Below, piece after piece: positions 4,913-64,000 of a stretch of 64,000 bases of DNA. The notes under the pieces are model-generated. The model ran no database searches. It had not been told where the DNA came from and was given only the letters and a program-made list of their open reading frames with translations. Numbering within the stretch: the first letter of the stretch is position 1; each line of letters opens with the position of its first letter. The stretch comes from Diadema setosum (Eukaryota; Echinodermata; Echinoidea; Diadematoida; Diadematidae), in assembly GCA_033980235.1 (NCBI GenBank), contig CM067067.1, positions 8,392,047 through 8,456,046 of the forward strand, written 5' to 3'. The translations under genes were made by a program, and so were the position numbers.

Positions 4913-5592
4913 GATGGACACCCGCGAGTCATACAGCTTACGAGTTATACTGCCCAAAAGTCATACAGCCCACGAGTCATACAGCTCACAAGTCATACAG
5001 CCTTCTAGCTATACAGCCTTCTAGCTATACAGCCCACGAGTTCGAAACTAAGTAAATAAAGCCTACGAGTTCAACATCAAGTAAAATAAGCCCACTTATA
5101 AAGCCCATGAGTTCGACACAACGCCCAAAACACTCAAAAGACTGACTCTACACTTAAAAAACTCACGAGACTGGCACAACGCAAACAAAGTTCACGAAAC
5201 TGACACTACGCAAAAGAGACCGATACTCGGCAAAGCAGTCCCACGAGACCAACAGGATGAACAACGCCACCTATAGACCAATTAATTGCGTAGGGTGTCC
5301 CGCGATTTTTTTTTCCGTAACCCTAACGCGTCGAAATTGCCAATTGTGTCACTTGAGCAAAGACTATCAGTGTACTTGGCTGGTTTTGTACGCATGCGCT
5401 TGGACTAACTACTGTACAGTATGTACACATATACCAGTGGCATGGTCGTCTGCTAACACAGAATCAGATTCGAATGTGAATGGCACGCCCTTCAGACATA
5501 ACAACGGGTTTGTGTGTAGGTGTGTGTGTGTGTGTGTGTGTAGGTGTGTATGTGTGTGTGCGTATGTGTGTGTGTGTGTGTGTTTCAAAAAA
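4913..5592 (+). repeat. Dispersed cassette: CACGAGTCATACAGCC motif array, linker and GT microsatellite
   Basis: The first module (about 4,913-5,250) is a degenerate short-period array of phrases such as ACGAGTCATACAGCC and CACGAGTTCGACA. A linker follows (GGATGAACAACGCCACCTAT, then a T9 run and CCGTAACCCTAACGCGTCG), and then a GT-rich microsatellite from about 5,511. The array module recurs at 20,946, 21,830 (inverted) and 25,975. The linker plus microsatellite recurs inverted at about 12,960-13,390. The ORF through the GT run is an artefact. Confidence 0.75.
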
Positions 5593-7411
5593 GAAGGTGA
5601 TTCAGCAGCACAAGTGTGTGCGTAAGGCAGATATGGACTGGCTTGAAGTTACTAAGTAAGAAAGCCTTTTCTGAGATATTCATGCAGAATTCTATGTCAA
5701 GTAATACGCTACGCATGGTATGATGTGTATATATAGGCCTATATTGTACTGTGTGTAAGAAAAATATGATTTAGAAGCACAAGAGATAAGAATTCAGCTG
5801 CTTATTTTTGTTCAAATTAATTTCATTGTAAACATGGGCCTGAAATATCGATGAAATTCTAATGAAGAATATCATTTCTGAATTATTCTGTTCGCACTGA
5901 ATCAACAGTAACACGTTCCCATTAATCGAAGTTCCAGAGGAAAATGAGAAGTGAGGACACAAGTCGTACATGGTAAATTGGAGCTTTATTCGAAGACGTT
6001 TCACATGAGCAAGCCATTTAGCAAGTATATCATTTTACAATACTCAGCACTCAGTATATCGTGTACAACATAAGCAGGGAGGTGACTCACCTTGCTGGTA
6101 TATGAGCAGGGAGGTGAGACTAAAATTCTCTCACCTCCCTGGTACACGGGAGGGTGCCTTTTTCAATCAAAGTTACAAATCACTAGTCACTTTCACTGAC
6201 AGCGATCACTTGTGTTCATATTATTTATGGGCTGCCTTACGCGGCAGCCTCAAAAGTGGAGTGAGCGTCAGGTGGTGTCCGTTGACAAGCCACGAATGAT
6301 TTTTTTTTTTTTGGGGGGGGGGGGTAGGATAATAGTGCTGCTTGATATAATGATGTGTACATAGGCCGTGAGGTAAAAGAAATTTCATTTCAATTCAATT
6401 CAATTCGATTTTATTGTCCGTTTCTGGAAATTTGTTTTGTTAGCATGCATACAAGTTACATCGATACATACAATATACAGAGCACACGTTTAACATGGAT
6501 ACACAGACATGATAAACGCACAAGAGATATACAGCAATACTATGTCAATGTCATTGTCAGAACGGTATGACATTAAAGAAATATTAATCTGTATAAATCA
6601 ACGTTGTGTTGGGTGTGGTGTGCATTAACATACACAAGTGTGTAAATATGTATCAGATTTATAATAACTATATAAAACTTTTAACTTATATAAATTAATA
6701 CATCTTTACGTCTAAATAAGTGATTGTATATATCTCGAAGGCTATTTACGTGCGTGTGTGTGCGTGTATATGTGTATACATGTGTGAACGTACAAAAATG
6801 TAAGTCTATGTTTTTTGAAAAAACCGTATAAATTACATCCATACGATTGTTCTTTTGTTTTTGTTTTACAACAGCTGAGATAATAGTAATTTGCTAGTCA
6901 ACTGTTAGGATGGCGTTAACAGCTGTCTGTGAAGGGTTAGTGTATAGGATCGCATTTGTATAACATACAAAATCTACGGTTTAAAGATGTAAAGCAATGA
7001 CAGTATTCAATGAAACATTGTGCCAACATCCATGTGACGTTTACATGAATGGTTAGTCCAGCGTGGCACGACATAACTACGTGCATGTATAAGGTTGAGC
7101 CAACATTGGTTCGAAACCAAGATGTTGACTCCACTAGGAATCATTAATCACCTACACAGTGTTCAAAAATTCATTCTGCCCCCCTCCCCCGCAGAAAAGT
7201 GGTGTTTTGATGTGCTCGTCACTAAATTTATGAAGAGTATTTTGATAATTTTCTCCTTCGTAGGCATTTAGATATTGAGAAATTTATTTGAAATGTATTT
7301 TCAATGATGTTTTGATGAAGTAATAGAACTGATGTCACAGAGGTTATTTGTAAAATATTTGGAGTGATTACTAAAGAGGATGAATTTAAAATGGAATACA
7401 AACATGTATTT
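5593..7411. other. Non-coding; hairpin and a minus-strand non-LTR 3' tail
   Basis: At 6,109-6,143 CAGGGAGGTGAG pairs with CTCACCTCCCTG around a short loop. A T11/G12 junction lies at about 6,300-6,324. At 6,375-6,415 the minus strand reads ACAATAAAATCGAATTGAAT followed by more GAATT-like repeats, resembling the short tandem tail of a non-LTR retroelement whose 3' UTR would extend toward about 6,560. No exon was found. Confidence 0.45.
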
Positions 7412-14124: not shown

Positions 14125-16436
14125 AGCCGGGGGGGGGGGGGGGGGGGGGAGGACCGGGGATTTGCGGGGCGAAAAAAAAAATGCGTGTATACTGTATGCA
14201 TGCACATGAAGCGGGTCTCCTTTTCAACCTTTCATCAAATAAGATCATAATTTTTTGAATATTTCACTCAAAGTGTGCACTAGATCGTTGAATTTCAATT
14301 CAAATTATGCAAAATCTCTCGTGCTTGGGAGGGGGTATCCCCCTCCCCAACCCTCTCCCTCTGTGCCTCTTTCCCTAGCCTTGGTACACTTTTTAGATTT
14401 ACACAAAATTATGAATAATTCCGAGTGCACAAGACTTATCACTTATATTCCAAAAACTCAAAGTTCCCTCGTGTACAAGGGGAATTTCCCCTTTTAATCG
14501 ACCCTTTCCTCCCTCAGTCCCCCCCCCCACATCAGTTTTTTTTTTTTATGATTTCCCAAATATGCCATCAAATATGCGTATAGGAGATATCTAAATTTCA
14601 ACCTTAAAAGGCAAAAGCTCCATCGTACTGGAAGGGTGGAGATAACACTCGCCCACGCCTTCCTCCTGCTCGCCCGCCCCTCCCCACCCCCCACCCCCAA
14701 GCATAGAAGTAGACTGTGGCTACGCTTTGAACATAAACAGTTTTCCAAATATGACACAAAATGTGTGTACCAAAACGTTTAACTGCAATCAGAAAATTAT
14801 ACAGAATCTCCTTCCACAGGCTTACTACACTTCTCTTCTGATTGAAAAATTTCCAGATATTCCAACAAAAGTGTGCGCCAGATTGTTGAATTTCAGTTCA
14901 AAAAGCTTCAGCAAAACTGAAAAAAGGCTCCCTTGAATATGGGAGAGGTATCTTACCACCCTTCCATTGCTTGTTACCCACTTTAGACTTCATACATTTA
15001 TGGGAATGACAATTTCCGAATTTTCCACAAAAAGTGTGCTCCAAATCGTTTTATTTCAATTCTTAAAACGCAAAAGCTCCGCCGAGCGAGAGGGAGAATC
15101 CCCCTTCCCCTAAGCTTTTCCTCACTAGACTTTGTACATACACAAAGATGATGTACATTCGGAATAAGAGCTAAATTCCGTGATTTTAACACTTCGATGA
15201 AAAAATATTGCACCAAAAATTTGCACCAAATCGCTGAATTTAAGGTCTGAAAATGCAAAATTACCTTCGTGTGGAAGGGGAAATGCCCCTATCTACACCC
15301 TCGTGTGCATGCTTTTTCTGTTTGATTGCTGAGCAGAAAGCGTTCATGATATTCATTGTAAGAAATAATACAAGACGTTTACTTAACTAATACCATTTTA
15401 TGGCCACAATGTTCAATAATAATCGACATGAAAACATTGATTTGGTACTTCAAACAAGTGGGACTGTTTCAAGTCGATAAAACACGCAAAAACAAGCAAA
15501 AACATGCATCAAATTGCACCATTTGCAACATCAAAATGCAAAAAGTTCTCACCGTGGGAGGGGGACACCCCCCTACCACACCCTCCCCGTCCCCTCGCTC
15601 GCTCCGCTCGCTCGGGCTCAGTGATATTCAGAGTAAGAATTAATGCAAAAAGTTTACTTAAATTATACCATTTTATGTATATCATAGGCAAATTGTGCAA
15701 TAATAATCTACACTAGAATATACTGCATACTGCAACCTTAAACAAGTGGGACTGTTTCAACTCGTTAAAACACGCAAAAACATGCATCAAATTGCACCAC
15801 TTGCAACATCAAAATGCAAAAAGATCTCACCGTGGGAGGGGGGACACACCCCTCCCACACCCTCCCCTCCCCGCTCGCTCGGGCTCAGTCGCTTCATGAT
15901 ATTCAGTGAAAAGAATTAATACAAGAAATGTATTTAAATCATACCATTTTATAGGAAAATTGTTCAATAATAATCTACATCAAAATATACTGCTGCCTTA
16001 AACAAGTTGGACTGTTTCACGTCGATAAAGCGCGCAAAACCATGCATCAAATTGCACCATTTACAACATAAAAATGCAAAAAAGTTCTCACCGTGGGAGG
16101 GGGACACCCCCCTCCCACACCCTCCCCCCTCCCACACCCTCCCCCTCCCCCCTCCTCCCCCGCTCGCTCCGCTCGCTCGGGTTCAGTCGCGTTCATGATA
16201 TTCAGTGTAAAAATTAATCCAAGACATTGATTTAAATGAAACCATATCTTATAGCCAAATTGTTCAATGATAATCGAAATGAAAATATATTGCTACCTTA
16301 AACAAGTGGGACTGTTTCAATTCGATAAAACGCGCAAAAACATGCATCAAATTGCACCATTTACAACATCAAACTGCAAAAAGTTCTTACCGTCGGAGGG
16401 GGACACCCCCCTCCAACACCCTCCCCCCCCCCCCCC
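14125..16436. repeat. Degenerate tandem array with G/C hairpins
   Basis: About nine to ten diverged units. Each has an AT-rich half (AAACACGCAAAAACATGCAT, CAAATTGCACCA) followed by a hairpin-prone GTGGGAGGGGG..CACCCCCCTCCCAC block and often CTCGCTCGCTCCGCTCGCTC. The last four units start near 15,440, 15,740, 15,995 and 16,295 (period about 255-300 bp) and are clearly alike. Earlier ones (14,266, 14,745, 14,870, 15,030, 15,215) share TGTGC..CAAATCGTTGAATTTCA and are older. A G-run at 14,130-14,149 marks the left edge. No coding sequence. Confidence 0.7.
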
Positions 16437-17338
16437 TCAAAAAAAATTGTTGCGAAAGCCTCCAAATCCAAGATGGCGTCCAAGATGGCCGCCATATTTA
16501 CAGAATTTGTTATTTAAATGATAGAATTCGATAGAAACATCAAATTTCAACAAATGTGATGTCATATGAAAGAGAATAAAATTTTCTACAAGTTGATACC
16601 ATTTTTGTGGGTTATTGTGATAATTTGATTGAGATTTTAAGGAAAAAACACTTATTTTTTGATATTTTTCTGAAAAAAAGAAAATCATGAAAATGCTTGA
16701 TTCAGCATAAATCAGAGAAAGACTAAAGGATTATCTTGAAACAATTCAAGAATTTTGTTTGACATATAATTAATATTTGAAGAAAATTAGGGGTTAGTAC
16801 CGTTTTCGGTTCAGGAGTTATAATGTCTCAAGCTTGAAAACTCACTACGTAAAAATGGCCACTTTAGTTGTGACCAAGACCTTGTTGGTCGTAAAAAAGT
16901 CTGCGCGAGCGCCAAGACTACTACACGCACCACTGGCACTGGCGCTTGTAGCAGTGCCAGTGGTGCGTGTAGTAGTCTCGACAAATGCAGACTTTTTCTT
17001 TGACAAACAAGGGTTTGTGCCTGCAAACTAACTTTTCATACCAAGTGGTAGCTCAGGTGATACTGATCGCTATTGTTTCAAAGTAAATTGTTCTGAAGCA
17101 GATGAGATGAAGCAAAAAAAAAAAATCAAATAGGGGTAGTAGCTTGAAACTTGCACCAATCTTGTTATATAGATAGTTTAAGACAGAATTTAGATCAACC
17201 GCTCAAAAAGAAAAATAAAGATGACAGCCATCAAAGTTGGCATAGTGTATTGCGCCAAATTAAATGTATTGTTTCGTTTTTGATTTAAATTTGTCTGTTG
17301 TGCTTTCTTAAACCGTCTTAAGTTTTTATGGACACATT
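16435..17338 (+). repeat. Left arm of a large inverted repeat, with palindromic core
   Basis: About 0.9 kb whose reverse complement matches 19,738-20,673 with moderate divergence, from TTGCGAAAGCCTCCAAATCC at the outer end to CTTAAGTTTTTATGG at the inner end. At its centre (16,880-17,012) is an imperfect palindrome containing two perfect 27-bp arms (16,915-16,941 and 16,952-16,978) around a 10-bp loop. The arms include ACTACACGCACCACTGGC. Non-coding. It probably represents a foldback-type or composite DNA transposon. Confidence 0.75.
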
Positions 17339-19737: not shown

Positions 19738-20673
19738 CTCCATAAAAACCTAAGATGGTTTGAAATGGCATTAAAATGTTCAGAATATATAAAAACCATA
19801 TGAATAGACAGCAAAACAGACAAAATTGTATCAAAATCAAAATGATACTTTTACTTTGGCGCAATACACTATGTCAGCTTTGATGGCCTGCAATCTTGAA
19901 TTTTTTGAGTGATTGATCCAAATTTTGTTTTAAACTTTCTATAGCAAGATTGTTTCAAGCTTCTACCTCTATTTGAAAGATATTTTTTGCTTCATCTCAT
20001 CTGCTTCAGAACAATCTACTTTGAAATAATAGCAATCAGCGTCACCTGAGCTACCACTTGGTATGAAAAGTTAGTTTGCAGGCACAAACCCTTGTTTGTC
20101 AAAGAAAAAGTCTGCGTTTGCCAAGACTACTACACGCACCACTGGCACTGCTGCAAGCGCCAGTGTGGCAGTGGTGCGTGTAGTAGTCTTGGCGCGCGCA
20201 GGCTTTTTTTTACGACCAACAAGGTCTTGTCACAACTAAAGTGGCCATTTTTACATAGTGAGTTTTCAAGTTTGAGACATTATAACTCCTGAACCGAAAA
20301 CGGTACTGACCCCTAATTTTTTTCAAATATTAATTATAATTATGTCAAACAAAATTCTTGAAACGTTTTAAGCTAAGCCTTCAGTCTTTCTCTGATTTAT
20401 GCTGAATCAAGCATTTTCATGATTTTCCTTTTTTCAGAAAAATATCAAAAAATGAGTGTTTTTTTTCCTTAAAATCTCAATCCAATTATCACAATAACCC
20501 ACAAAAATGGTATCAACTTGTAGAAAATTTTATTCTCTTTCACATGACATCAAATTTGTTGAAATCTGATTTTTTAATCAAATTCTATCTTTCAAATAAC
20601 AAATTCTGTAAATATGGCGGCCATCTTGGACGCCATCTTGGATTTGGAGGCTTTCGCAACAAATTTTTTGAGG
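19738..20673 (-). repeat. Right arm of the large inverted repeat
   Basis: Reverse complement of 16,435-17,338. Its own palindromic core has perfect 24-bp arms at 20,121-20,144 and 20,169-20,192 (CCAAGACTACTACACGCACC...), differing from the left-arm core in the loop and flanks. This shows that the hairpin is maintained in both copies despite divergence. Confidence 0.75.
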
Positions 20674-20945: not shown

Positions 20946-21415
20946 TGTCATGAGACTGACACCCATGAGTCATACAGCCAACGAGTAATGCAGCTCACAA
21001 GTCATACAGCCCACGAGTCATACTGCTCACAAATCATACAGCCCTCTTGTAATGCAGCCCACGAGTTCGACACTAAGTAAATAAAGCCCACGAGTTCGAC
21101 ATTAAGTAAAATAAACCCACGAACTCGAGTTCGACACTACGACCCGACACTACGACCCGACCCTACGCTCAAAAGGCTCACAAGACCGACACTGCGCAAA
21201 TGAGTCTCACGAGGCAATTAAGATCCATCATACCTTCAGGATGAACAGCGTCACCTACGGACCAATTAATTTTAATGGGTGTCCAGACACATGTAATGGC
21301 ATGAGGAAGATATGAGAAATGGAAAAGGAGAGTTGCTTCGATGTTGCCCCGTCGCTTGCCCTCACTCATCTCGTGAAATGTTCAAGATATGTAATTTCTG
21401 TTTGTGTGTGTGTGA
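20946..21415 (+). repeat. CACGAGTCATACAGCC cassette, second copy
   Basis: Short-period array (GAGTCATACAGCC, CACGAGTTCGACA variants) followed by the AGGATGAACAGCGTCACCTA linker and the GTAATGGCATGAGGAAGATA segment, as at 4,913-5,300. The GT microsatellite is reduced to a short TGTGTGTGTGTGAG at 21,401. Confidence 0.7.
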
Positions 21416-35890: not shown

Positions 35891-38450
35891 CTAATCACAA
35901 CGGAGGTGACGCTGGAGCGCTTCTTTGAATGTGTCAAATTTATGAATCTGCTTTATGTTACTCGGCAGATTATTCCAATCCTTCGCTGTTCTATGAAAGA
36001 AGGAGTTGGCGAGAGCAGTTAAGGAACCGTATAAAGTAGAGTAAGTATCCGGATGATAACTTCGGGTTGTCATACCTCTCGGTGCTTGAGCAGGACTGAT
36101 ATAATCCTCGAGATTTAAATCAATATTGCCGTGCTTTATTTTATGAAATGTTGATAGCCTTAAAAGCTTGCGTCGTTCTGGGAGTGGATGAAGTTTGAGA
36201 TCCTTTATCATTCCGGAGACAGAAGATTGCCACTTGTAATCATTACAGATGAATCTGGCTGCTCTATTTTGTACTGCTTGAATCTTGGAGATGTTACGTT
36301 GAATGAAGGGGTCCCATACTGTACAGCAATACTCCAAGTGGGGACGCACTAGGCTCTTGTATGCTTGTAATTTAACATTTCTCGGTGCATTATGTAGATT
36401 ACGACGGAGAAAGGCAATCATGCTGCTTGCTCTGGCTGTAGTTATATCAATATGTCTATTCCATTTTAATTTGTCTGATAAGGCAACTCCTAGGTATTTG
36501 TGACTGGACACTGTTTCTATCTGGTGACCTGATAAGGTGTACGTGTGATGAATGGGTCGAGACTTCCTTGTGAAGCGCATAACGCTGCATTTGTCCAGCT
36601 TGTATTTCATTTGCCATCTTTTTCCCCAAGCCTCTAAGGTACGTAGATCTTGTTGGAGTATGACACAATCTTTATGTGTCTTAATGGGACGGTAAACTAC
36701 ACAATCGTCTGCGAATAAGCAGACGTTGGATGAAACTTGATCAGGGAGATTATTAATATATGATAACAAAAGCAATGGGCCCAGAACAGTGCCTTGGGGC
36801 ACTCCTGAAGAAACATGAACGGGTCTTGAGGATGACCCTTGGACTACGACTGTTTGTTCCCTTTCTGTGAGAAATTGTGAAATCCATGAAAGTAGTGAGC
36901 CCTGGATTCCAAGATACTTGAGGCGATGAAGGAGCCTCTGATGTGGTACGGTATCAAACGCTTTTGCAAAGTCTAACACAACAGCGTCAACTTGCTTAAT
37001 GGTTTCGACAGAGGAGAAAATATGATGAATTGTTGTAATCAGTTGGGACTCACACGACCGTCTGGATCTGAATCCATGCTGTGTGTTACTGAGGATATTG
37101 TTATCCTCCAGATGGCTCATAATGTGGCGATAAATGATATGTTCTAAGACTTTGCAGCAGGTGGATGTGAGGGATACCGGCCTGTAGTTGGCTGGGTCGG
37201 ATCTACTACCATTCTTGTACAGAGCATTTATATTAGCTTGTCTCCAATCTCGGGGTAGCGTGCCAGTCCGAAGACTTTGCGTAAATATGACTTGCAATAT
37301 AGGTGCTACTTGTGCAGCACATAACTTGAGGAATTTGGGAGAAATGCCGTCTGGGCCAGAAGCTTTATTCACATCTAAGTTCTTAAGAAGTTTCATAATA
37401 CCTTCTGTAGAAATAATCAAATCTGATATTATTGGGATTTGTCTCTGTCCCATATGAGGAATATTAATCAAATCTTCTTTAGTGAAAACTGATTGATATT
37501 GATCACTTAAGACTTCAGCTTTTTCACGAGCTGTATCGGCTAGTTTTCCCTTGGAATATAAAGCCGATATACCATTTGTGTCACGCCTCTTTTGCTTAAT
37601 AAAAGACCAAAATTTCTTGGGGTTAGAAGTGAGTGAGTCAAAAACTGTTGTTCCTAAAGAATGTTGTTCAGCTTTTCGAAGTTCTTTTTGGACTTGCTTA
37701 CGAAGCTGCCTATAACGGCACCAGTTCCGATGGGATCCATCTGTTTTGGCACTATAAAACGCCCTATTTTTCTTTCTAATTAATCGCTTGAGGGTTCCGT
37801 TTATCCAAGGAAGATTAAATCGAGTACTCTTATACCTTGAAGGAACATTTGAATCAACACTGCTATAAATAGCTTCCTTAAATGCGTTCCAGTTCTCCTC
37901 CACTGTCTTATGTGCATAATTGGCCTGGAAAACTTGAAAGAAATTTTCCATATCCTTTCGGAGATTAAATGTATCTGCTTTATCCCATAAATAAATCTTT
38001 CTACGTTTTGCTTTATGGAGAACAGGGCGTAAAGAAATTTCTGCTATCATATTAAAATGATCAGATATTCCTGCTTTTGTTACGATTGGTGCAAAACAGC
38101 CAGGGTTTGTTACGAGAAGTAGGTCCAGGATATTTCTAACATTGCCTGATCTCGTCTTCTGGTTGTGATTGGGTTCGTAAGCCAATTGAGTGAATGAGAA
38201 ATCGTGGATTAAATCGAGAAGCTCTGTGGTCAGTTCCTGAGGGTACACGCAGTGGTGTTCAGGCTTTCTACACAGATTGGACCAATCAATGTCTGGGACA
38301 TTAAAGTCACCTCCTACCCATACTATAGGGTTTTTACTGAAGAGTAGCCCTGAACTGCCTCTCTTAAAGATCAGATAGCGGGGACGACTAAAAACCACCA
38401 GTTCTGGCTCCGAGATGTTGAGGAGGAAATGAAATCCGTGAACATCACCT
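35891..38450 (-). mobile_element. 5'-truncated non-LTR retrotransposon ORF2 (endonuclease fragment + reverse transcriptase)
   Basis: An uninterrupted frame, the only long one in the window. Counting from the first in-frame Met at 38,536, genuine protein starts at about residue 30. The C-terminal part of an APE-type endonuclease follows, with GGDFN (75-79) and SDH (158-160). A linker leads to a reverse transcriptase with ANYRPVSLTS (449-458), DFAKAFD (522-528), SGVPQGTVLGP (577-587) and the catalytic FADD (608-611), then a C-terminal Cys/His-containing region ending near QRHLRCD. The endonuclease N-terminus is missing: upstream is a T-rich, G-run junction at 38,461-38,490. The architecture and the hexamer tail fit the CR1/L2/Rex-Jockey assemblage. 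I cannot name the clade. The intact frame suggests recent activity of the family, though this copy should be dead on arrival because the endonuclease lacks its first half. Confidence 0.92.
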
Positions 38451-38536
38451 GGAAAGTACCCTCCCCCTCCCCCCCCCCAAAAAAAAAAATAAATAAAAAT
38501 AAATAAACGCACAGAATGGGCAAGAATAAAAGACAT

Positions 38537-40934
38537 TCGCTGCTATCCTATATGCCAGGAGGTATAATAAGCAGTAAGTACGTAAGCAAGATAATTAGGT
38601 GGTAATTTTTGCGGATCGAAGTATCCTAACAAGAACGACAACCATTATAGATATCAATCGAGGACAACAGGGGTCTTTGTGATAGTGTGTTCTTGAAGAT
38701 CACAAAACAGACAGACAACATAAGTTAGCCAGAGGAAAAGAAAAGAACAATGAAGACAGCGGAGAAAATAGGGGAAAATAGGAATGAAAGATCCAAGAAA
38801 AATTCGAGCTCATCACTCTTCGGATTTTTTTAGTGAATCCAAGATGCAATGAAAGATCCTTGGCAAGCTGGACCATTGTCCGATGGGTAGCCAAACCAAA
38901 CGCCGTGATTCTCATCCATTTTTCACGGCATAGAAAAGCAGTGCCACGTCTTGAGTGTGAATTTCAGCCCCCGCAACTGAGGTCACGTCATTGATCATAA
39001 AATGGTTTAAGCTGCATGCCGCACCACGAGTTTACGGGTTCAGCTTCTACCTCGCTCTTTCGAGTAGTGAAGGGAATAACTATTTGTAAGATAGTGGAAT
39101 ATATCAAAGGAATAGGTTTCCATGAGCGAGCAGAGCGCAAGTGCAGGAGATAAGGATACAAAAAGAAAGATGGAGAAGAAGGGGATGAAGAATACATCAG
39201 AGATGAGGAATTATGGAAAGAGAGGCGGATTAATGCATTTACAGTATTAGAGATTCATTTTATCATTTAATTTTGTCTGTGTGTGTGTCTGTGTGTGTCT
39301 GTGTGTGTGCTTGTGCGTGTAGGTTTATTTTACAGATTCGATCTCAACACTCTTCGGATTTTTTTCAGTGAAATATATCTTGCTTCCCACTCTCTCTTCT
39401 CCCTCCCCTCATCTTTCCTTCCTTCAGTCTATCGCCTTCTATTCCTTCTTCATTTTCTCTTTCTCCTTCTTGTATTATTAATTCTGTAGGATTGATTTTG
39501 ATGGATTCGATTGCAAAACGTGTCGAACGCCTTTTTTCAAAGATTTATAATAAGTCCATAATCAAACAGACCAAAATAAAACCATTCAACTGATATTTTT
39601 TTCACTCATTACAGAATAAAGAATATTTTCTAAGTTATGATGACAAATATTCCATATTTTGTTATAATTCTCTTTGTTTTGCAAAGCAAGTTTAACTTTC
39701 AAATATCGCGAATTGATAAGAACTGAGGTAACTCGTTTTGCCATCAAATTCTTCATTTTCCTCCCACTTGTACACTTACAATGACTCTCCATTCACGACT
39801 GTCTCCCATCTGTTAATCAGAGGTTTTCTTCATTAATTTTACACTGACAATGTGTTACGTCACTCTTTATCGTGTTTTGTATTGCGTTGCATAATATGCC
39901 TTGTAATGCTCATTGAGTGTGTGTCTGACTGTGAGTTCGTTTGTTCTCTTTTTTGTTCTATCATTATTCACCAGCACGAAAAAAGCAAAATGAGACCGTC
40001 ACATAATGAATGGCAAAGAACACTCGATTTATTTTACAAGACACCTCTAGATATCAAACGACGCACATTTAGGGGAACAAAGTAATTTACAGCAAAAGGT
40101 AAAGGATATGCTGAACGAATTGCTGTGAACATGGAGATAATAATGAGGTGAAAAAGCTGCGAGAGTAAACATAAATTAGTACACAATGTCATAACTACTT
40201 GTTCCATTTCTCTTCCCAATTTCTTTCCTCTTCTTTCAAGGGTGTAAGTAAAATTACTCATCTGATTATCTTGAGCTCAGTAGTTAAAACAAGATATCAA
40301 AGTAGTTGCAGCATCTTGCGAGATCCTACAATGAACAATTTCTTGTTCTGGTTTGTTTTGGGACTGTATATGTCAGATTTTTGACAGAGAAGGCTACAGC
40401 TAGAGCAAGACACCATACTTAGGCCTAGGTATCCAAAGGTCCTAAAATGCCGCAGACTGTTCCAAATGTGACAGAAAGGTTTACAATAATTATCAATTAC
40501 TCCTTATTTAGGATGTAGCAAATACGAAGTCTCTTTTGTACGAGGTCTGACTTTAGTACAATCACATGCGACCACACAGGCAGGTTACACAGATCAAACC
40601 GTTACAAAGAGCAAATAGGAGCCAGACTAGGTGGTGCGCTCGCGTGAAAACATGACCCAGAACATGGACAAACTGCAAACAAAATGGTGACATAAAGAAA
40701 ACATCGTTTCTTCCAATATCAAGAGAACCTCTGGAGTAGCTTCCTGAGTATGGAATTAGTCCTCGCCGTTACGTCACAAACAGGGCCGCATTGAACGATG
40801 TACCCGTGACTGAAACTGGATCCTCTTACTATGGAAATGTGGCGAGTGACTGATAACATCATGTATGGAACCCGTTGACTTAATCTCGTGCGTTCAAGTT
40901 GAATTTGCCTACTGCCTTCTGTCATGCTTTTCAG
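38537..40934. other. Non-coding, no supported gene
   Basis: AT-rich sequence with a GT-rich tract at about 39,270-39,320 and scattered short ORFs without splice support. Nothing else stood out. Confidence 0.5.
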
Positions 40935-43430: not shown

Positions 43431-45589
43431 ATGCGTACAGCCCATAAAGCTTGAGCCCTCTGTGAGGTCTAAGATGATTTGTTCCTTGATTATGAATTAT
43501 TTGTAACACAACAGTGGGCGTAAGAACACAATGATATGTCTTTTGTGAGAGGATGGGATTAAAGTATGCGGATCTTTATTTCTACATTAAGTTTAAAAAA
43601 ATCGAGATGTTCTTAAGAAGGTCATACTTGGCACCAAGTTTACCTATGCTTTGTGACAGCACGCTACATTTCAGATACAGAAGAGAGGGAGAGAGGGAGA
43701 GAGAGAGAGAGAAAGAGAGCTGGAAATAGAGAAGGAGAAACAAAACGATATTTAAGGCCAGTGGTTTTACTACTAAATAGCAGTGGTTTTTGGCATTATA
43801 CACTGAAAAAAAAAAATCTTCGACGAGATAACAAATTTCTAATGAAAATTACTATTCTATACAATTGTGTTATGGCTTAGTTGAGGCAAATATTGTACGT
43901 CCACATGTACTTTGGTAGAGGAACCGAGAATGCCGTATCCCCCCCCCCCCGCTTTTTTTTTTAATCAATGTAGTTTAAAGGATCACGAAATACAGGAAAA
44001 GTAGTCCTTGAAAATGTACACAGGCGTGCATAAAGGTCGGGAATATATTTTATATGTTTCTGTATGGATTAGCTGAAAGAATCTTCATTCTTTGTGTGCC
44101 GAACACGAGTCATTATTGAACCGGAAGAGAATAAAAGGTTGAGAAGAAGTTAAATTAAAGATATTTTGCCCTATTCAGGCGTAGTCGTTGTCTCGAATTG
44201 CTTGAAATTTCGCCCCTATTTCAGAAGCAGTTGCTGGAAAATGGCTGATGTGATGCTGCCCTCATAGTGACGTCAGTATGATCTGAAAAAATAAATGAAA
44301 AGATACATTCAGTTGAGTTGTGTGGTTGGGACTCTCTTGCTGACACTCACGGGCATTGTTACGTGATGATATAAAACTCGAGTAATTGTGGCATAAAGAA
44401 TAAAGTTTTTGAGTGACGGAACGGAAGATCCCGAGTTCGAATCTTGCCTTGTGCTTTTGTCTATTTTGAAGATGTTTCCCTATACAACATCTTTCGTCAG
44501 CTTGTTATAAACTTGGTTCCTGACAATATTTGGGCAACGATATTGACAGAACCCTGTCTGACAGGACTTCCAGCAGTGAAGAGGCTGCCTACGTTGGTAG
44601 GATTACATCATCACATAGGATTCTATTTTACGCCTTTCGACCACGATGCGATGTTCAAAGCCTTGTGCTAGAAGTCATACAGTCAAAAGTCAGTCCTGTT
44701 ATATAAAATTCATGGCGGGTCTTTATATCAATCACTTTCACCGACTGATGGCAAAGTGACAAAGATATTTTACGTTAACCTTTTCATGAATGAGGGAGAC
44801 AGAGAGAGGTACGTTTTAGATAGGCAAAATCATACACGACAACCTTTGTCCGTTTGTGGTGTTCAGCAAAACATCTGCCAAATTTCATGAATACATCACA
44901 CGACACGTTTGAATGTAACGTGCTACCTCTTGTAGAATGCAGGTTTTCGGACACTACCGCATCCAGGTTTTGACATGACAGTGACAAATGTTTCTAACCT
45001 ATGTTTCCTTCTTGCTCTGTTTAAAGTCGTGTTTTCATTTCATTTTCTGTGAAAACGCCTATCTTGAAAGCCTGAACCAACGTTACCCGCTACGTGTCCC
45101 TTCCCTAGCACTTACGGATCCTCTAACGTGATGATGAATTGGGGCAAAGGGTGTAAAATCAAGAGGACACCCAACTTGTATGTCGTTTCAAAGTTCGCAC
45201 TGATTTTCTTTTCCGGGTATATTTCGTATGTTATTCAACTCTCCTCCACAAACTCAGTGTCGTTCTTTTTTAGCTTGTTTGAAGACATCTTGATTTTAAT
45301 AAGATTAAACTACAATAAAGTTTTTCGTTTGCAACAAGTTGATAAGTTGTACTTATTTCAGGATTAAATGCATGCTGTAAAAGGTAAAAATCAGAATTGG
45401 ACATGAACTAATCAGCAAACCGAATAAATTCAATCGTCTCAAATAGTATTACACATGATATTTGTAGATATGAAGAATGTTGGTCTAAGAATAGATTCCT
45501 TGGACAATCCATATTTCATCTATTTCTGTTCAGATTAAAAATTTTTTTATACAATTGCTTCCTATTGAATAACACAATAGGTAACTTCA
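43431..45589. other. Non-coding, with GA microsatellite
   Basis: A (GA)n-rich tract at 43,679-43,722 and a C10/T9 junction near 43,940. A frame at 44,444-44,671 lacks splice support. A B-box-like GAGTTCGAATCTT at 44,432 has no accompanying A box. Confidence 0.45.
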
Positions 45590-46057
45590 AGATATTCCTC
45601 ATACCAATGAATGACCTGCAGTAAATATACTTTCTATCAAAGACATCAACAACCTTCATATACGTATAAAGTCAAGCAAGGCATGAGATATGGAGTACCC
45701 AGCACTTCTTAATCCACCTTGATTTGGGCAATTATATATTGCACAACGTAATCCTTTATTCAATCTATTGAATAAACATTTTTCAAAAAAAAAAAACCTT
45801 TAAAACAGGAAAGATCGAAAGATATTCCTCATACCAATGAATGACCTGCAGTAAATATACTTTCTATCAAAGACATCAACAACCTTCATATACGTATAAA
45901 GTCAAGCAAGGCATGAGATATGGAGTGCCCAGCACTTCTTAATCCACCTTGATTTGGGCAATTATATATTGCACAACGTAATCCTTTATTCAATCTATTG
46001 AATAAACATTTTTCAAAAAAAAAAAACTTTGGAAAATACAGGAAAGATCGAAATATA
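45590..46057. repeat. Recent 230-bp tandem duplication
   Basis: Two copies begin AGATATTCCTCATACCAATG at 45,590 and 45,820. They are almost identical (one difference is GGAGTACCC versus GGAGTGCCC, plus changes at the 3' edge). Each ends in GAATAAACATTTTTC and an A12 run, resembling a polyadenylated 3' end. Confidence 0.9.
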
Positions 46058-56491: not shown

Positions 56492-57948
56492 ATCGGTTGC
56501 ACGTAATCCCAAGTCATGATGAGCAAGATAGTAAACATCCGGTTTTTATTTTTTACACATAAAGTAGATTTTATGCTTTATAATACTTTACGATTTTATA
56601 ACGTCAACGGAAACACCGGAAACAAGGTTAGTCAGTTTTGATCTATGGATAAAATCTTTGAAAAAAAAAAAGAAACCAAGTGTGAACAGGGAAAAAGTAT
56701 TGCCTGTAAGAGTCTAGCTACAGTTGGTTGAGCATCAGTCACCATTAGCTGATGAATTAAAAAGTTAATTAATTGCCATTTTTAGTCCGTATTATGCAGA
56801 GATCGCCAAAATTCCATTCAAAAGCCTTGGCATACGGAGAGTCGCATATTTTTCAGGTGAGGTTTAAGCGTTGATAATTCCGGCTGAGGGGGGGGGGGGG
56901 GTTTAAAACACACAAATCAATGAAATCAATGACTGTGAGGAGAAAGATTAACATCTCATGATGTGAATGTTTTACTGATATCGAATTGCGCTAAAACGCT
57001 TCCTCAATTCGTGGAAGAACACAATATGAGAAAAGCCTTTGAAAACTTCAAAACATCAATAAACGAACTGGCTCTGATTTTGAACATCACGCGTTCATAT
57101 TTTACCCTCCAAACGAGAGAGGGGGGGGGGAGATTTGGAAAAAAAAAAGATAAAAAGTTTCACTTGATTGCGAATGCTGCAATTCTATCGACTCTTGAAG
57201 CCTACTGAGGCGATCAACCCGGAATTTCAATGAGAAATGTTCGATAGTACCATGCCAACAGTCGATCGGTTGACCAGCCAACCTGCTCAATCAGGGCTGG
57301 CTGCTCGTAAGCAATGATGGATACAATCATAATTGCACGCACTTTCAGCCTCTCTCTCAACCGACTGCGTGATATCTTATTTTCTCTTTTAAAGCTTGAT
57401 ATACTTTCTCCGATTTACTCATACCTACACAAACATTCCTATTCCTGATCTCTTGAATTTGGGTTTTTCACCATTTTATTTCCTCCGGCTGTATGAAGCG
57501 ACGTTTTTTTTTTTCTCCCTTATCATTCAACAACCTATCCAATACATTCGCTCACAGACACACACACACATATACTATATCTCTCTTCTTCTTCTTCTTC
57601 TTCTTCTTCTTCTCTTTCTTTCTCTCCTATCTTCATCTTGTCGTCTCTCCATTGAGTTACAGCGCATATAATCTCATTTAATTCTTTCTTTATCAGTGAA
57701 ATGCGCAAGGATATCTAAGGCTCATGAAAAAATGCACAAAGTTGAATCCAAGGCCGAGGAAACGAGCCACATTTCTACGTTACTGCTGTTAGAGAGACCT
57801 AATCATTAATCCGCACAACTGACGTCAAAGAGTTCCCGCAGAATTGTTTTAATACTACTGGAAAATCTCACAGTTCCTCGATCTTTTCATACAAATATAC
57901 GATATATGTAGGCGGGCACACGCACGCACACACACACACACACACACA

Positions 57949-57986
<38 letters not shown>

Positions 57987-58223
57987 CTCCTTGTGTTACA
58001 TACTGTCATAAAATAAGACTTGTACTTCAGAATTGTATGAAATGCTTATTCGGGCATTTCCCGTGCATTTTTCAATGTTAATTTTGTCAATTTATCATTA
58101 TTTTACTATTAATTGTTGCGTTTGAAAGATAGAGGAGCCATTTACATTAGATTTTTGTTTGATACGAAACCAGAAGGAACGTTCCTTGTGGCTCTCTAGG
58201 TTTTGAAAATACATTCATATGTT
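56492..58223. other. Non-coding; compound microsatellites
   Basis: G-runs at 56,887 and 57,121, a (CTT)n tract at about 57,582-57,612, and a compound (CA)n(CT)n(CTAT)n tract at 57,918-57,987. The ORFs at 56,963-57,208 and 57,396-57,681 overlap these tracts and lack splice support. Confidence 0.6.
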
Positions 58224-58300
58224 TGCAACTGATTGACAAATTGCCCTTCATCGACGTAAATAAGCACTGAATTGATCAGTGTTTTAGTAGTAGCCATGAT

Positions 58301-58307
58301 AAAAAAA
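58301..58307 (-). terminator. Possible RNA polymerase III terminator (T7), unit 1
   Basis: Seven T on the minus strand, 13 nt downstream of the tRNA-like 3' end and within the loop of CCATGAT/ATCATGG. It is repeated in every unit (six T in unit 10). Confidence 0.5.
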
Positions 58308-58320
58308 TCATGGGCGTACA

Positions 58321-58392
58321 TACTCGAGCAGGATTCGAACCTACGACCTCCTGATCACCGGACAGGCGTCATCTCCACTAGACCACCGAGCT
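58321..58392 (-). ncRNA. tRNA-like gene, unit 1 of 16
   Basis: 72 nt fold as a cloverleaf. The acceptor stem AGCTCGG/TCGAGTA has six of seven pairs, including two G-T, with an A1-A72 mismatch. T8 is present, then a D arm GTC...GAC. The anticodon stem CCTGT/TCAGG has a T-T at its base, the variable loop is AGGTC, and the T arm is GTAGG-TTCGAAT-CCTGC. A box: TGGTCTAGTGG. B box: GGTTCGAATCC. A T7 run (plus 58,301-58,307) 13 nt past the 3' end could terminate RNA polymerase III. The anticodon loop CCGGTGA lacks T33 and would read GGT (Thr), so normal decoding is doubtful: a tRNA-derived RNA or SINE head is more likely. Equivalent copies start at 58,589, 58,857, 59,125, 59,393, 59,661, 59,929, 60,197, 60,465, 60,732, 61,000, 61,268, 61,536, 61,804, 62,072 and 62,340. 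Confidence 0.7.
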
Positions 58393-61300
58393 TTCGCCCG
58401 ACAGCAAGTGTTGGTTCTAATCCTTATAGCATGCAGCGGGTACTGCTTTGTTATTCAAATTTATGAAATTCTTCCGTCGAGAAGTTTTCATTGCAACTGA
58501 TTGACAAATTGCCCTACATCGACGTAAATAAGCACTGAATTGATCAGTGTTTTAGTAGTAGCCATGATAAAAAAATCATGGGCGTACATACTCGAGCAGG
58601 ATTCGAACCTACGACCTCCTGATCACCGGACAGGCGTCATCTCCACTAGACCACCGAGCTTTCGCCCGACAGCAAGTGTTGGTTCTAATCCTTATAGCAT
58701 GCAGCGGGTACTGCTTTGTTATTCAAATTTATGAAATTCTTCCGTCGAGAAGTTTTCATTGCAACTGATTGACAAATTGCCCTACATCGACGTAAATAAG
58801 CACTGAATTGATCAGTGTTTTAGTAGTAGCCATGATAAAAAAATCATGGGCGTACATACTCGAGCAGGATTCGAACCTACGACCTCCTGATCACCGGACA
58901 GGCGTCATCTCCACTAGACCACCGAGCTTTCGCCCGACAGCAAGTGTTGGTTCTAATCCTTATAGCATGCAGCGGGTACTGCTTTGTTATTCAAATTTAT
59001 GAAATTCTTCCGTCGAGAAGTTTTCATTGCAACTGATTGACAAATTGCCCTACATCGACGTAAATAAGCACTGAATTGATCAGTGTTTTAGTAGTAGCCA
59101 TGATAAAAAAATCATGGGCGTACATACTCGAGCAGGATTCGAACCTACGACCTCCTGATCACCGGACAGGCGTCATCTCCACTAGACCACCGAGCTTTCG
59201 CCCGACAGCAAGTGTTGGTTCTAATCCTTATACCATGCAGCGGGTACTGCTTTGTTATTCAAATTTATGAAATTCTTCCGTCGAGAAGTTTTCATTGCAA
59301 CTGATTGACAAATTGCCCTACATCGACGTAAATAAGCACTGAATTGATCAGTGTTTTAGTAGTAGCCATGATAAAAAAATCATGGGCGTACATACTCGAG
59401 CAGGATTCGAACCTACGACCTCCTGATCACCGGACAGGCGTCATCTCCACTAGACCACCGAGCTTTCGCCCGACAGCAAGTGTTGGTTCTAATCCTTATA
59501 GCATGCAGCGGGTACTGCTTTGTAATTCAAATTTATGAAATTCTTCCGTCGAGAAGTTTTCATTGCAACTGATTGACAAATTGCCCTACATCGACGTAAA
59601 TAAGCACTGAATTGATCAGTGTTTTAGTAGTAGCCATGATAAAAAAATCATGGGCGTACATACTCGAGCAGGATTCGAACCTACGACCTCCTGATCACCG
59701 GACAGGCGTCATCTCCACTAGACCACCGAGCTTTCGCCCGACAGCAAGTGTTGGTTCTAATCCTTATAGCATGCAGCGGGTACTGCTTTGTTATTCAAAT
59801 TTATGAAATTCTTCCGTCGAGAAGTTTTCATTGCAACTGATTGACAAATTGCCCTACATCGACGTAAATAAGCACTGAATTGATCAGTGTTTTAGTAGTA
59901 GCCATGATAAAAAAATCATGGGCGTACATACTCGAGCAGGATTCGAACCTACGACCTCCTGATCACCGGACAGGCGTCATCTCCACTAGACCACCGAGCT
60001 TTCGCCCGACAGCAAGTGTTGGTTCTAATCCTTATAGCATGCAGCGGGTACTGCTTTGTTATTCAAATTTATGAAATTCTTCCGTCGAGAAGTTTTCATT
60101 GCAACTGATTGACAAATTGCCCTACATCGACGTAAATAAGCACTGAATTGATCAGTGTTTTAGTAGTAGCCATGATAAAAAAATCATGGGCGTACATACT
60201 CGAGCAGGATTCGAACCTACGACCTCCTGATCACCGGACAGGCGTCATCTCCACTAGACCACCGAGCTTTCGCCCGACAGCAAGTGTTGGTTCTAATCCT
60301 TATAGCATGCAGCGGGTACTGCTTTGTTATTCAAATTTATGAAATTCTTCCGTCGAGAAGTTTTCATTGCAACTGATTGACAAATTGCCCTACATCGACG
60401 TAAATAAGCACTGAATTGATCAGTGTTTTAGTAGTAGCCATGATAAAAAAATCATGGGCGTACATACTCGAGCAGGATTCGAACCTACGACCTCCTGATC
60501 ACCGGACAGGCGTCATCTCCACTAGATCACCGAGCTTTCGCCCGACAGCAAGTGTTGGTTCTAATCCTTATAGCATGCAGCGGGTACTGCTTTGTTATTC
60601 AAATTTATGAAATTCTTCCGTCGAGAAGTTTTCATTGCAACTGATTGACAAATTGCCCTACATCGACGTAAATAAGCACTGAATTGATCAGTGTTTTAGT
60701 AGTAGCCATGATAAAAAATCATGGGCGTACATACTCGAGCAGGATTCGAACCTACGACCTCCTGATCACCGGACAGGCGTCATCTCCACTAGACCACCGA
60801 GCTTTCGCCCGACAGCAAGTGTTGGTTCTAATCCTTATAGCATGCAGCGGGTACTGCTTTGTTATTCAAATTTATGAAATTCTTCCGTCGAGAAGTTTTC
60901 ATTGCAACTGATTGACAAATTGCCCTACATCGACGTAAATAAGCACTGAATTGATCAGTGTTTTAGTAGTAGCCATGATAAAAAAATCATGGGCGTACAT
61001 ACTCGAGCAGGATTCGAACCTACGACCTCCTGATCACCGGACAGGCGTCATCTCCACTAGACCACCGAGCTTTCGCCCGACAGCAAGTGTTGGTTCTAAT
61101 CCTTATAGCATGCAGCGGGTACTGCTTTGTTATTCAAATTTATGAAATTCTTCCGTCGAGAAGTTTTCATTGCAACTGATTGACAAATTGCCCTACATCG
61201 ACGTAAATAAGCACTGAATTGATCAGTGTTTTAGTAGTAGCCATGATAAAAAAATCATGGGCGTACATACTCGAGCAGGATTCGAACCTACGACCTCCTG

Positions 61301-62563
61301 ATCACCGGACAGGCGTCATCTCCACTAGACCACCGAGCTTTCGCCCGACAGCAAGTGTTGGTTCTAATCCTTATAGCATGCAGCGGGTACTGCTTTGTTA
61401 TTCAAATTTATGAAATTCTTCCGTCGAGAAGTTTTCATTGCAACTGATTGACAAATTGCCCTACATCGACGTAAATAAGCACTGAATTGATCAGTGTTTT
61501 AGTAGTAGCCATGATAAAAAAATCATGGGCGTACATACTCGAGCAGGATTCGAACCTACGACCTCCTGATCACCGGACAGGCGTCATCTCCACTAGACCA
61601 CCGAGCTTTCGCCCGACAGCAAGTGTTGGTTCTAATCCTTATAGCATGCAGCGGGTACTGCTTTGTTATTCAAATTTATGAAATTCTTCCGTCGAGAAGT
61701 TTTCATTGCAACTGATTGACAAATTGCCCTACATCGACGTAAATAAGCACTGAATTGATCAGTGTTTTAGTAGTAGCCATGATAAAAAAATCATGGGCGT
61801 ACATACTCGAGCAGGATTCGAACCTACGACCTCCTGATCACCGGACAGGCGTCATCTCCACTAGATCACCGAGCTTTCGCCCGACAGCAAGTGTTGGTTC
61901 TAATCCTTATAGCATGCAGCGGGTACTGCTTTGTTATTCAAATTTATGAAATTCTTCCGTCGAGAAGTTTTCATTGCAACTGATTGACAAATTGCCCTAC
62001 ATCGACGTAAATAAGCACTGAATTGATCAGTGTTTTAGTAGTAGCCATGATAAAAAAATCATGGGCGTACATACTCGAGCAGGATTCGAACCTACGACCT
62101 CCTGATCACCGGACAGGCGTCATCTCCACTAGACCACCGAGCTTTCGCCCGACAGCAAGTGTTGGTTCTAATCCTTATAGCATGCAGCGGGTACTGCTTT
62201 GTTATTCAAATTTATGAAATTCTTCCGTCGAGAAGTTTTCATTGCAACTGATTGACAAATTGCCCTACATCGACGTAAATAAGCACTGAATTGATCAGTG
62301 TTTTAGTAGTAGCCATGATAAAAAAATCATGGGCGTACATACTCGAGCAGGATTCGAACCTACGACCTCCTGATCACCGGACAGGCGTCATCTCCACTAG
62401 ACCACCGAGCTTTCGCCCGACAGCAAGTGTTGGTTCTAATCCTTATAGCATGCAGCGGGTACTGCTTTGTTATTCAAATTTATGAAATTCTTCCGTCGAG
62501 AAGTTTTCATTGCAACTGATTGACAAATTGCCCTACATCGACGTAAATAAGCACTGAATTGAT

Positions 62564-62613
62564 CATTCCTTAAAATACTGCAACATTCATATGTTGCAGT
62601 ATTTTAAGGAATG
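62564..62613. repeat. Perfect 22-bp palindrome at the right edge of the array
   Basis: The arms 62,564-62,585 (CATTCCTTAAAATACTGCAACA) and 62,592-62,613 are exact reverse complements around the loop TTCATA. The left arm begins at the last bases of the array. The central ACATTCATATGTTGCA nearly equals ACATTCATATGTTTGCA at 58,211-58,227, just left of the array. Confidence 0.95.
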
Positions 62614-64000
62614 TCTCAGGTATAAATGATTATGGAGTAATATGGGAAAAGCAAAGACAACATAAATGGAATGAGCTGAATTTATTTGACTGTTAACATT
62701 AGTATAGTTTTTGAGGACTCGGAGAGATTTTTCCCTTTATGCCCACAGTTTGGGAGTATTTTAATAGAACTGTGATTAAAATGATGAAGATAAACTAATA
62801 TTCAAAACTTTAATGAAATAATCAATATATTGATATTAAAAATAACAATAATGATAGTAGTAGTAGAAGTAGTAGTAAGAACAAAATTGTCTCACTTGTT
62901 CGTTCATTCGAACGCTGTTCTCTCAAAGGGCCTTGGAGATCAATATCTGGGCCATAGAATTGCAAAGGTACTCTTTTTTTTACGTTTAAGTTCATAATAA
63001 TAATGATAATATGGGGATTTATAAGGCGTCAATTCCATGTAATGATTAAATGCTCTAGGCGAAACTTGTGCAAGATACGAATTACATACATAAAAGAAGG
63101 AGGCACGATTTTAAGTTACAGAGTCAAGCGTTTTATCCAGTGTGAGACGTACGGCAAATATAATTTAGCAAACTGTGAGGAAGATTAATCCATACCCCTG
63201 ATATGTATTGTTGTAATGAAACTAGCCGAAACCTCGTGACCTGATTTAGCTTTTCCCGATTGAGTCTTGCTGAGCCTACTTTTAGGTGCCTTGTAAAGCA
63301 TGTCTGTTCCCCTGCCATGGTGTATTATGTATTGGATTTCCCTGAGCCGGCAGCCTCAAGTGTATACGCGGATCAACCTGACCGGTAAGCTGGTTTAGCA
63401 TACTCTTCAAATCTCTGCAATTCACGTGATAATTGCTCACCGTTACATGACACGACCGTGATCTGGATCTTTTGTGGCATTCGTTTGCTGACTGCAGTCA
63501 TATGATGTTTGTATTTAAACTTATCTGTTTGTGTATATGTCTATGTATGTAAGCTACACACAGAAAGAGAAAAAGAGACGGAGAAAAAAAATATACCACA
63601 TAGCTATACTCATTGTTTGAAAGTGCCTTATATTTCACAATATTACCGAACCTATAACTGTTATTCAATTTATGCTTAAACAATTGCATATTTGTACATT
63701 ATAGAAAGAGCGAAAAATGGATATACATGATATTCATTTCTGGACAGTGTGCATTGTGCGAGGAGCAGTAAGAAGAAGATTTCTATGTCAAGAATCAATA
63801 GGAAACAAAATCATCAAGCCGAAAACAGAGAGAGTGAGCGGGGTAACGGGGAGGTTGCAGAAGAAGAGTTTTAATGAGGAGGAGGAAGAAGAAGAAGAAG
63901 AAGAAGAGGAGGAATGTGCTTCTTTATTTTAAAGTCAGAGCTCTGACATTGCACTTTCCGGTTGCATATCAGCAAAAGATCAGGCAGTGGGCAATTAATT
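62614..64000. other. Non-coding; GAA/GGA microsatellite at 63,866-63,914
   Basis: AT-rich flank with (TAG)n near 62,855-62,878 and a GAGGAGGAAGAAGAAGAAGA tract at 63,876 that yields a poly-Glu ORF (63,717-63,932). No splice-bounded exon was recognised. Confidence 0.5.

Follow-up and report, generated by a model that had tools for sequence, protein, structure and literature searches.

A stretch of 64,000 nucleotides from the echinoid Diadema setosum (assembly GCA_033980235.1, contig CM067067.1, positions 8,392,047 to 8,456,046, forward strand), hereafter the window, contains a tandem array of 268-bp units, each carrying a segment that resembles a transfer RNA (tRNA) together with promoter signals for RNA polymerase III (Pol III). 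With rather better than even confidence, we read this locus as a young, homogeneous satellite-like array in which the 268-bp monomer bears a tRNA-derived segment with a type-2 Pol III promoter that looks intact. The tRNA part would have lost its function as a tRNA and would have been kept since it travelled with the monomer. The main interest of the locus lies in its readable edges, which suggest that the array was inserted as a block.

The array was delimited by Tandem Repeats Finder (TRF), which reports a period of 268, 16.2 copies and 99% matches over positions 58223–62565, and it was cut into units at TTGCAACTGATTGAC.

58223–62565, no strand assigned: tandem array, by TRF and unit cutting, with 16 units, of which 15 measure 268 bp and one 267 bp, followed by 56 bp of an incomplete unit

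This confirms the sixteen near-identical 268-bp units described in a first-pass annotation of the same DNA; the 267-bp unit is the tenth and starts at 60635. Ten of the 16 units are identical and the remaining six differ by one change each: units 1, 4 and 5 each carry a substitution seen in no other unit, units 9 and 14 have a single substitution in common, located in the A box, and unit 10 has a T run shorter by one base. Near-identity of this kind points to recent amplification or strong homogenisation, and cannot demonstrate constraint. The tRNA-like part holds one of the four distinct substitution sites, which is the A-box site, and the sole deletion is that in the T run; no sparing of promoter signals is visible among the unit differences, and with so few changes the comparison has almost no power. 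The two ends of the array are out of phase, the left end falling at unit position 1 and the right end at unit position 56. A coding repeat was considered and rejected: the unit length of 268 is not divisible by 3, and no homologous proteins were found for two reading frames that span the unit on the plus strand.

The tRNA-like segment lies on the minus strand, where the Rfam tRNA model RF00005 scores above its gathering threshold in all 16 units (42.8 bits, E 9.6e-6, in 14 of them; 34.9 bits in the two A-box variants). ARAGORN calls a tRNA-Thr(GGT) in 14 units, missing the same two variants, and makes no call in 3000 dinucleotide-shuffled units. The first-pass annotation had proposed shuffled sequence as the yardstick for a tRNA model, and against that yardstick its tRNA-like assignment is upheld; the 72 nt that it gave for the segment become 73 nt, the span of the model. 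Outside the array, a lax Rfam scan that covered the whole window finds no further tRNA match. The segments are listed below; tRNA position numbers, here and throughout, follow our own reading of the Rfam alignment.

58320–58392, minus: tRNA-like segment 1, with A box at 58375–58385 and B box at 58331–58341 (Rfam RF00005, 42.8 bits; ARAGORN Thr(GGT))
58588–58660, minus: tRNA-like segment 2 (Rfam, ARAGORN; boxes exact)
58856–58928, minus: tRNA-like segment 3 (Rfam, ARAGORN, box match)
59124–59196, minus: tRNA-like segment 4 (Rfam, ARAGORN, box match)
59392–59464, minus: tRNA-like segment 5 (Rfam, ARAGORN, box match)
59660–59732, minus: tRNA-like segment 6 (Rfam, ARAGORN, box match)
59928–60000, minus: tRNA-like segment 7 (Rfam, ARAGORN, box match)
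60196–60268, minus: tRNA-like segment 8 (Rfam, ARAGORN, box match)
60464–60536, minus: tRNA-like segment 9, A box changed (G10 to A; Rfam 34.9 bits, not called by ARAGORN)
60731–60803, minus: tRNA-like segment 10, in the unit with T6 instead of T7 (Rfam, ARAGORN, box match)
60999–61071, minus: tRNA-like segment 11 (Rfam, ARAGORN, box match)
61267–61339, minus: tRNA-like segment 12 (Rfam, ARAGORN, box match)
61535–61607, minus: tRNA-like segment 13 (Rfam, ARAGORN, box match)
61803–61875, minus: tRNA-like segment 14, A box changed as in segment 9 (Rfam 34.9 bits, not called by ARAGORN)
62071–62143, minus: tRNA-like segment 15 (Rfam, ARAGORN, box match)
62339–62411, minus: tRNA-like segment 16 (Rfam, ARAGORN, box match)

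Type-2 Pol III signals accompany each of these segments. The B box, GGTTCGAATCC, is matched exactly in all 16 units and the A box, TGGTCTAGTGG, in 14, so that the first-pass claim of both boxes in every unit holds for the B box and fails for the A box in the two altered units. The T run beyond the 3′ end, for which a T7 at a distance of 13 nt had been claimed throughout, is a T7 in 15 units and a T6 in one, and the gap is 12 nt. Both boxes are exact in 14 units, 13 of these with T7 and one with T6.

58301–58307, minus: T7 run, a possible Pol III terminator, downstream of tRNA-like segment 1 after a 12-nt gap and lying between the arms CCATGAT/ATCATGG of an inverted repeat

In the one unit examined for this purpose, the T7 is the sole run of at least four T on the minus strand. 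A run of at least seven T occurs within the first 20 nt in 0.15% of 20000 shuffled spacers, and a run of at least five within 25 nt in 2.9%. The hairpin around the T7, with arms of 7 bp, is equalled or bettered in 199 of 2000 shuffled units, and a TATAA placed 36 nt upstream of the tRNA-like part is present in 8.4% of shuffles; both are within chance, so neither counts as evidence. The A box, the B box, the T run and the covariance-model tRNA fold are present beyond chance. Pol III may read the units to some degree, and transcripts, if made, would be about 90–95 nt long. If the units are transcribed, the array would supply an unusual tRNA-like RNA; if they are not, it consists of amplified inert promoter copies. 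Two further box-like sequences were seen: GGTTCTAATCC at 58681–58691 (plus strand, in the unit at 58491) is a B box with one mismatch on the strand opposite to the tRNA-like part, and may be chance or the trace of a second, decayed tRNA, and GGTTCGAAACC at 7108–7118 (plus strand), outside the array, matches the B-box consensus exactly and is not covered by any tRNA model match.

The segment retains much of the tRNA core and departs from a normal tRNA at several positions. The covariance-model cloverleaf is accompanied by U8, A14, G18, G19 and the T loop, by G15 with C48, and by a D-loop GG and a T-loop TTCGAAT; a U33 and a well-paired anticodon stem are absent, since position 33 is C, U31 faces U39, A1 faces A72 and the anticodon is GGU in the Rfam alignment. 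These departures support the earlier view that the unusual anticodon loop argues against an ordinary translation tRNA. Parentage was addressed by comparison with 31 human tRNAs. The best scores were those of Arg(UCG) and Thr(AGU), at 24 each, followed by Pro(CGG) at 22, with identities of 68–69% to the best of these tRNAs; none of them reaches 26, the 95th percentile for pairs of unlike isotypes, and no parent tRNA is therefore assigned. The anticodon arm aligns gap-free with human tRNA-Thr(AGU), a match that is suggestive only.

The edges of the array contain a direct repeat, ACATTCATATGTT, and a palindrome, which overlap on the right side as follows.

58211–58223, plus: left copy of the 13-bp direct repeat (exact 13-mer), abutting the array; candidate target-site duplication
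62583–62595, plus: right copy of the 13-bp direct repeat (exact 13-mer)
62566–62582, minus: the 17 nt from the array end to the right direct repeat, an exact reverse complement of 62595–62611; candidate product of fold-back synthesis
62564–62613, no strand assigned: perfect palindrome at the right array edge, with 23-bp arms and a 4-nt loop, from the palindrome scan

The right copy of the direct repeat forms the centre of the palindrome. With loops of up to 11 nt and up to one mismatch allowed, and simple AT repeats excluded, the scan found only one other palindrome in the window with arms longer than 20 bp. A microRNA precursor was considered for the right palindrome and rejected, as the match to mir-883 is weak (27 bits against a gathering score of 85).

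These features can be brought together in a single account. A pre-made multimer, for example a rolled-out circle of the monomer, would have been joined into a staggered break, which would give rise to the 13-bp duplication; the right end would then have folded back on ACAT/ATGT, copied the adjacent host DNA and been joined, which would give rise to the palindrome. Fold-back scars of this type are left by polymerase-theta-type end joining. Block insertion at a 13-nt stagger followed by fold-back thus covers both the direct repeat and the inverted copy, and array ends at unit positions 1 and 56 are what a broken multimer predicts. Any reading of the units by Pol III most likely has no host function. 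A bolder form of this account, which we hold to be decidedly improbable, is that a Pol III satellite seed has only recently landed here: an entire multimer, probably made by way of a circle, would have been caught in a staggered break that still shows its fold-back scar beside the 13-bp duplication, and its 14 promoters with intact boxes would be read into a tRNA-like RNA of about 90 nt. If true, it would tie Pol III activity, circle formation and the birth of a satellite to one datable locus. The entry event of such arrays has so far mostly been inferred, and here a nearly mutation-free array can be read together with both of its edges.

Several observations weigh against the reading of the locus as a young satellite-like array that arrived as a block. 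The cloverleaf claimed in the first-pass annotation holds for the covariance model and not for the free-energy optimum: the minimum free energy fold of the bare 73-mer keeps the acceptor, D and T arms and not the anticodon arm, and its energy is unexceptional (z = −0.21, with 79 of 200 shuffles folding at least as well). The unit has no relatives elsewhere in the 64,000-nt window, so that a satellite extending beyond one locus is at most presumed, and the copy number is that of the assembly, the quality of which is uncertain. When 25 bp of the left edge and 60 bp of the right edge were shuffled by mononucleotide, a shared 13-mer arose in 13 of 200000 trials; this low figure speaks for block insertion but is post hoc, the edges having been compared once the palindrome and the match had already been seen. 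Chance, aided by the palindromy of the repeat itself, might account for the direct repeat, as might a duplicated flank of which it is the remnant. Growth of the array in place, with a short duplicate expanded by unequal exchange, would leave similar array ends.

One alternative is that the array is a satellite derived from a short interspersed nuclear element (SINE), in which a tRNA-headed SINE has become tandemised in the manner of the squamate sSats. It fits the tRNA-derived head recognised by Rfam, which bears both boxes, and tandem repeats derived from SINEs are known (PMC10702118; PMC11121367). For most sSats, a longer terminal unit or a simple-repeat tail is described (PMC10702118); here no simple-repeat tail was seen at the array edges, and neither array end has a longer terminal unit. 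Outside the array, the closest matches to the unit within the window, its long interspersed nuclear element (LINE) included, measure 13–21 bp (E 0.57); that LINE, the one LINE compared, provides no match for a LINE-like 3′ region of a SINE. The 13-bp direct repeat, a candidate target-site duplication, flanks the entire array. On this evidence we consider an origin from a tandemised SINE unlikely.

Poorer still are the prospects of a second alternative, according to which the units form the tandem core of a HINE, a non-autonomous Helentron, with the right palindrome as its 3′ hairpin. A palindrome does follow the tandem core directly (62564–62613), as it does in Cg_HINE (PMC7492417), and a short microsatellite lies at 57949–57989, about 230 bp left of the array. 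The arms of the palindrome are 23 bp long, in contrast to the 5–10 bp described for mite HINEs (PMC4067079). Helentron insertion is described as occurring at TT and without target-site duplication (PMC7492417; PMC4067079), Cg_HINEs included (PMC7492417); here a 13-bp direct repeat, a candidate target-site duplication, lies at the edges. Inverted matches between 57000–58222 and 62450–62720 are at the level of chance: there is one exact 10-mer, as in 24 of 60 shuffled pairs, and there are six inverted 11-mers with one mismatch, where shuffles give a mean of 3.9. Helentron core repeats were accordingly rejected as a candidate, subterminal inverted repeats of about 11–15 bp being not above chance in this comparison, which included the last unit, or in a narrower one, with a degenerate pair possible.

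A third alternative holds that the array is a selected bank of Pol III genes, either an expressed cluster producing an abundant tRNA-derived RNA or a boundary bound by TFIIIC. The units with exact boxes and T runs are what such a bank might be predicted to contain; units 9 and 14 are nevertheless changed at a normally invariant A-box base, and the differences among units give no sign of spared promoter signals. An inert satellite that had inherited a tRNA-derived segment would be expected to show this pattern just as well, and a selected bank appears, from the sequence, very improbable. That the units are ordinary translation tRNA-Thr genes in tandem can scarcely be credited: the ARAGORN label and the gap-free anticodon arm of Thr(AGU), joint best of the 31 human tRNAs, speak for it, the Thr(AGU) score of 24 lies below the 95th percentile of 26 for unlike isotypes, GGU is not known as a nuclear threonine anticodon in animals, and an ordinary tRNA gene bank was rejected on C33, the stem mismatches U31·U39 and A1·A72 and the GGU anticodon. 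Both the Helentron and the ordinary tRNA gene bank are thus disfavoured, and the young satellite-like array remains our preferred reading.

The window contains other repeats and mobile sequences. The LINE is represented by a non-LTR (long terminal repeat) retrotransposon open reading frame of 883 codons at 35891–38542 on the minus strand, with reverse transcriptase and endonuclease domains; it has 98% identity to an ENA protein, and of its 1204 matches the 120 that were listed include, as named animals, Branchiostoma (43–46%) and Pinctada (42%). An inverted repeat at 16435–17308 and 19806–20673 (885-bp alignment, 89% identity), which may be a fold-back element, lies beside a tandem array with a period of about 260 bp at 15343–16431, and its left copy contains a near-perfect inverted repeat at 16913–16980, in which arms of about 28 bp enclose a loop of some 10 nt. 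A 16-bp tandem repeat with the consensus CCCACGAGTCATACAG is present in two copies, at 4921–5041 and 20962–21066, and the stretches around them are 75% alike over about 290 bp. Finally, 230 bp are directly duplicated at 45589–46057 (97% identity), and each copy has an A-rich run close to its end.

Searches beyond the window returned little. Exact DNA pattern scans found no relatives of the unit in the viral_contigs set, and in genome_contigs they found two bacterial loci with a 21-base match, at which ARAGORN finds no tRNA; these two are taken as chance. Phage records gave 1837 matches at E up to 10, and the ten that were listed, at 74% and E 2 to 7, lie on tRNA genes and reflect general tRNA similarity only. 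No report of the 268-bp repeat was found in the literature, in searches that were not aimed at the host organism. Going by the four amphibian families listed in PMC10702118, tandem repeats with a working-looking Pol III promoter seem few in the literature.

The OAX unit is about 740 bp long. OAX, or satellite I, of Xenopus laevis is a like array, tandem with a tRNA-derived segment (PMC10702118, PMC9659126), and was transcribed in oocytes according to the title of the original paper; the likeness is by description only, and its unit is longer than 268 bp and is judged too long for a proper satellite (PMC10702118). It is one of four amphibian tandem families with a tRNA-related part described in PMC10702118, the others being PolIII/TAN, Rana/polIII and Hy/polIII, the last with a tRNA origin that is doubted there; two of the four, OAX included, appear in a table of PMC9659126.

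Molluscs provide two partial parallels. The monomer of PcH-sat, from the limpet Patella caerulea, includes a piece of a tRNA SINE, comparable to the tRNA-like part here, but is described as lacking boxes A and B, both of which the array units keep (PMC11121367). In Cg_HINE of Crassostrea gigas, as in the present array, a palindrome marks one end of the tandem core (PMC7492417); the present array differs in its long palindrome arms, its 13-bp direct repeat and subterminal inverted repeats that are not above chance.

The remaining amphibian families are closer in unit length. PolIII/TAN of the newt Cynops pyrrhogaster is a tandem repeat of about 360 nt with a tRNA-like sequence, for which in vitro transcription is shown and no parent SINE is given as known (PMC10702118); it is derived from tRNA-Glu according to a title, while the unit described here is closest to Arg, Thr or Pro without a clear winner. 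Rana/polIII of water frogs is a tandem repeat of about 250 nt with 64% similarity to tRNA over 64 nt, to be compared with 268 nt and 68–69% here; it reaches up to 10% of some frog genomes (PMC10702118), whereas the present array is known from one locus. In common with these tRNA-derived Pol III tandem repeats, the Diadema array has tandem units of a few hundred bp and a tRNA-related segment with A and B boxes. Going by structure as read from sequence, the locus would be best filed, by likeness, with OAX, PolIII/TAN and Rana/polIII.

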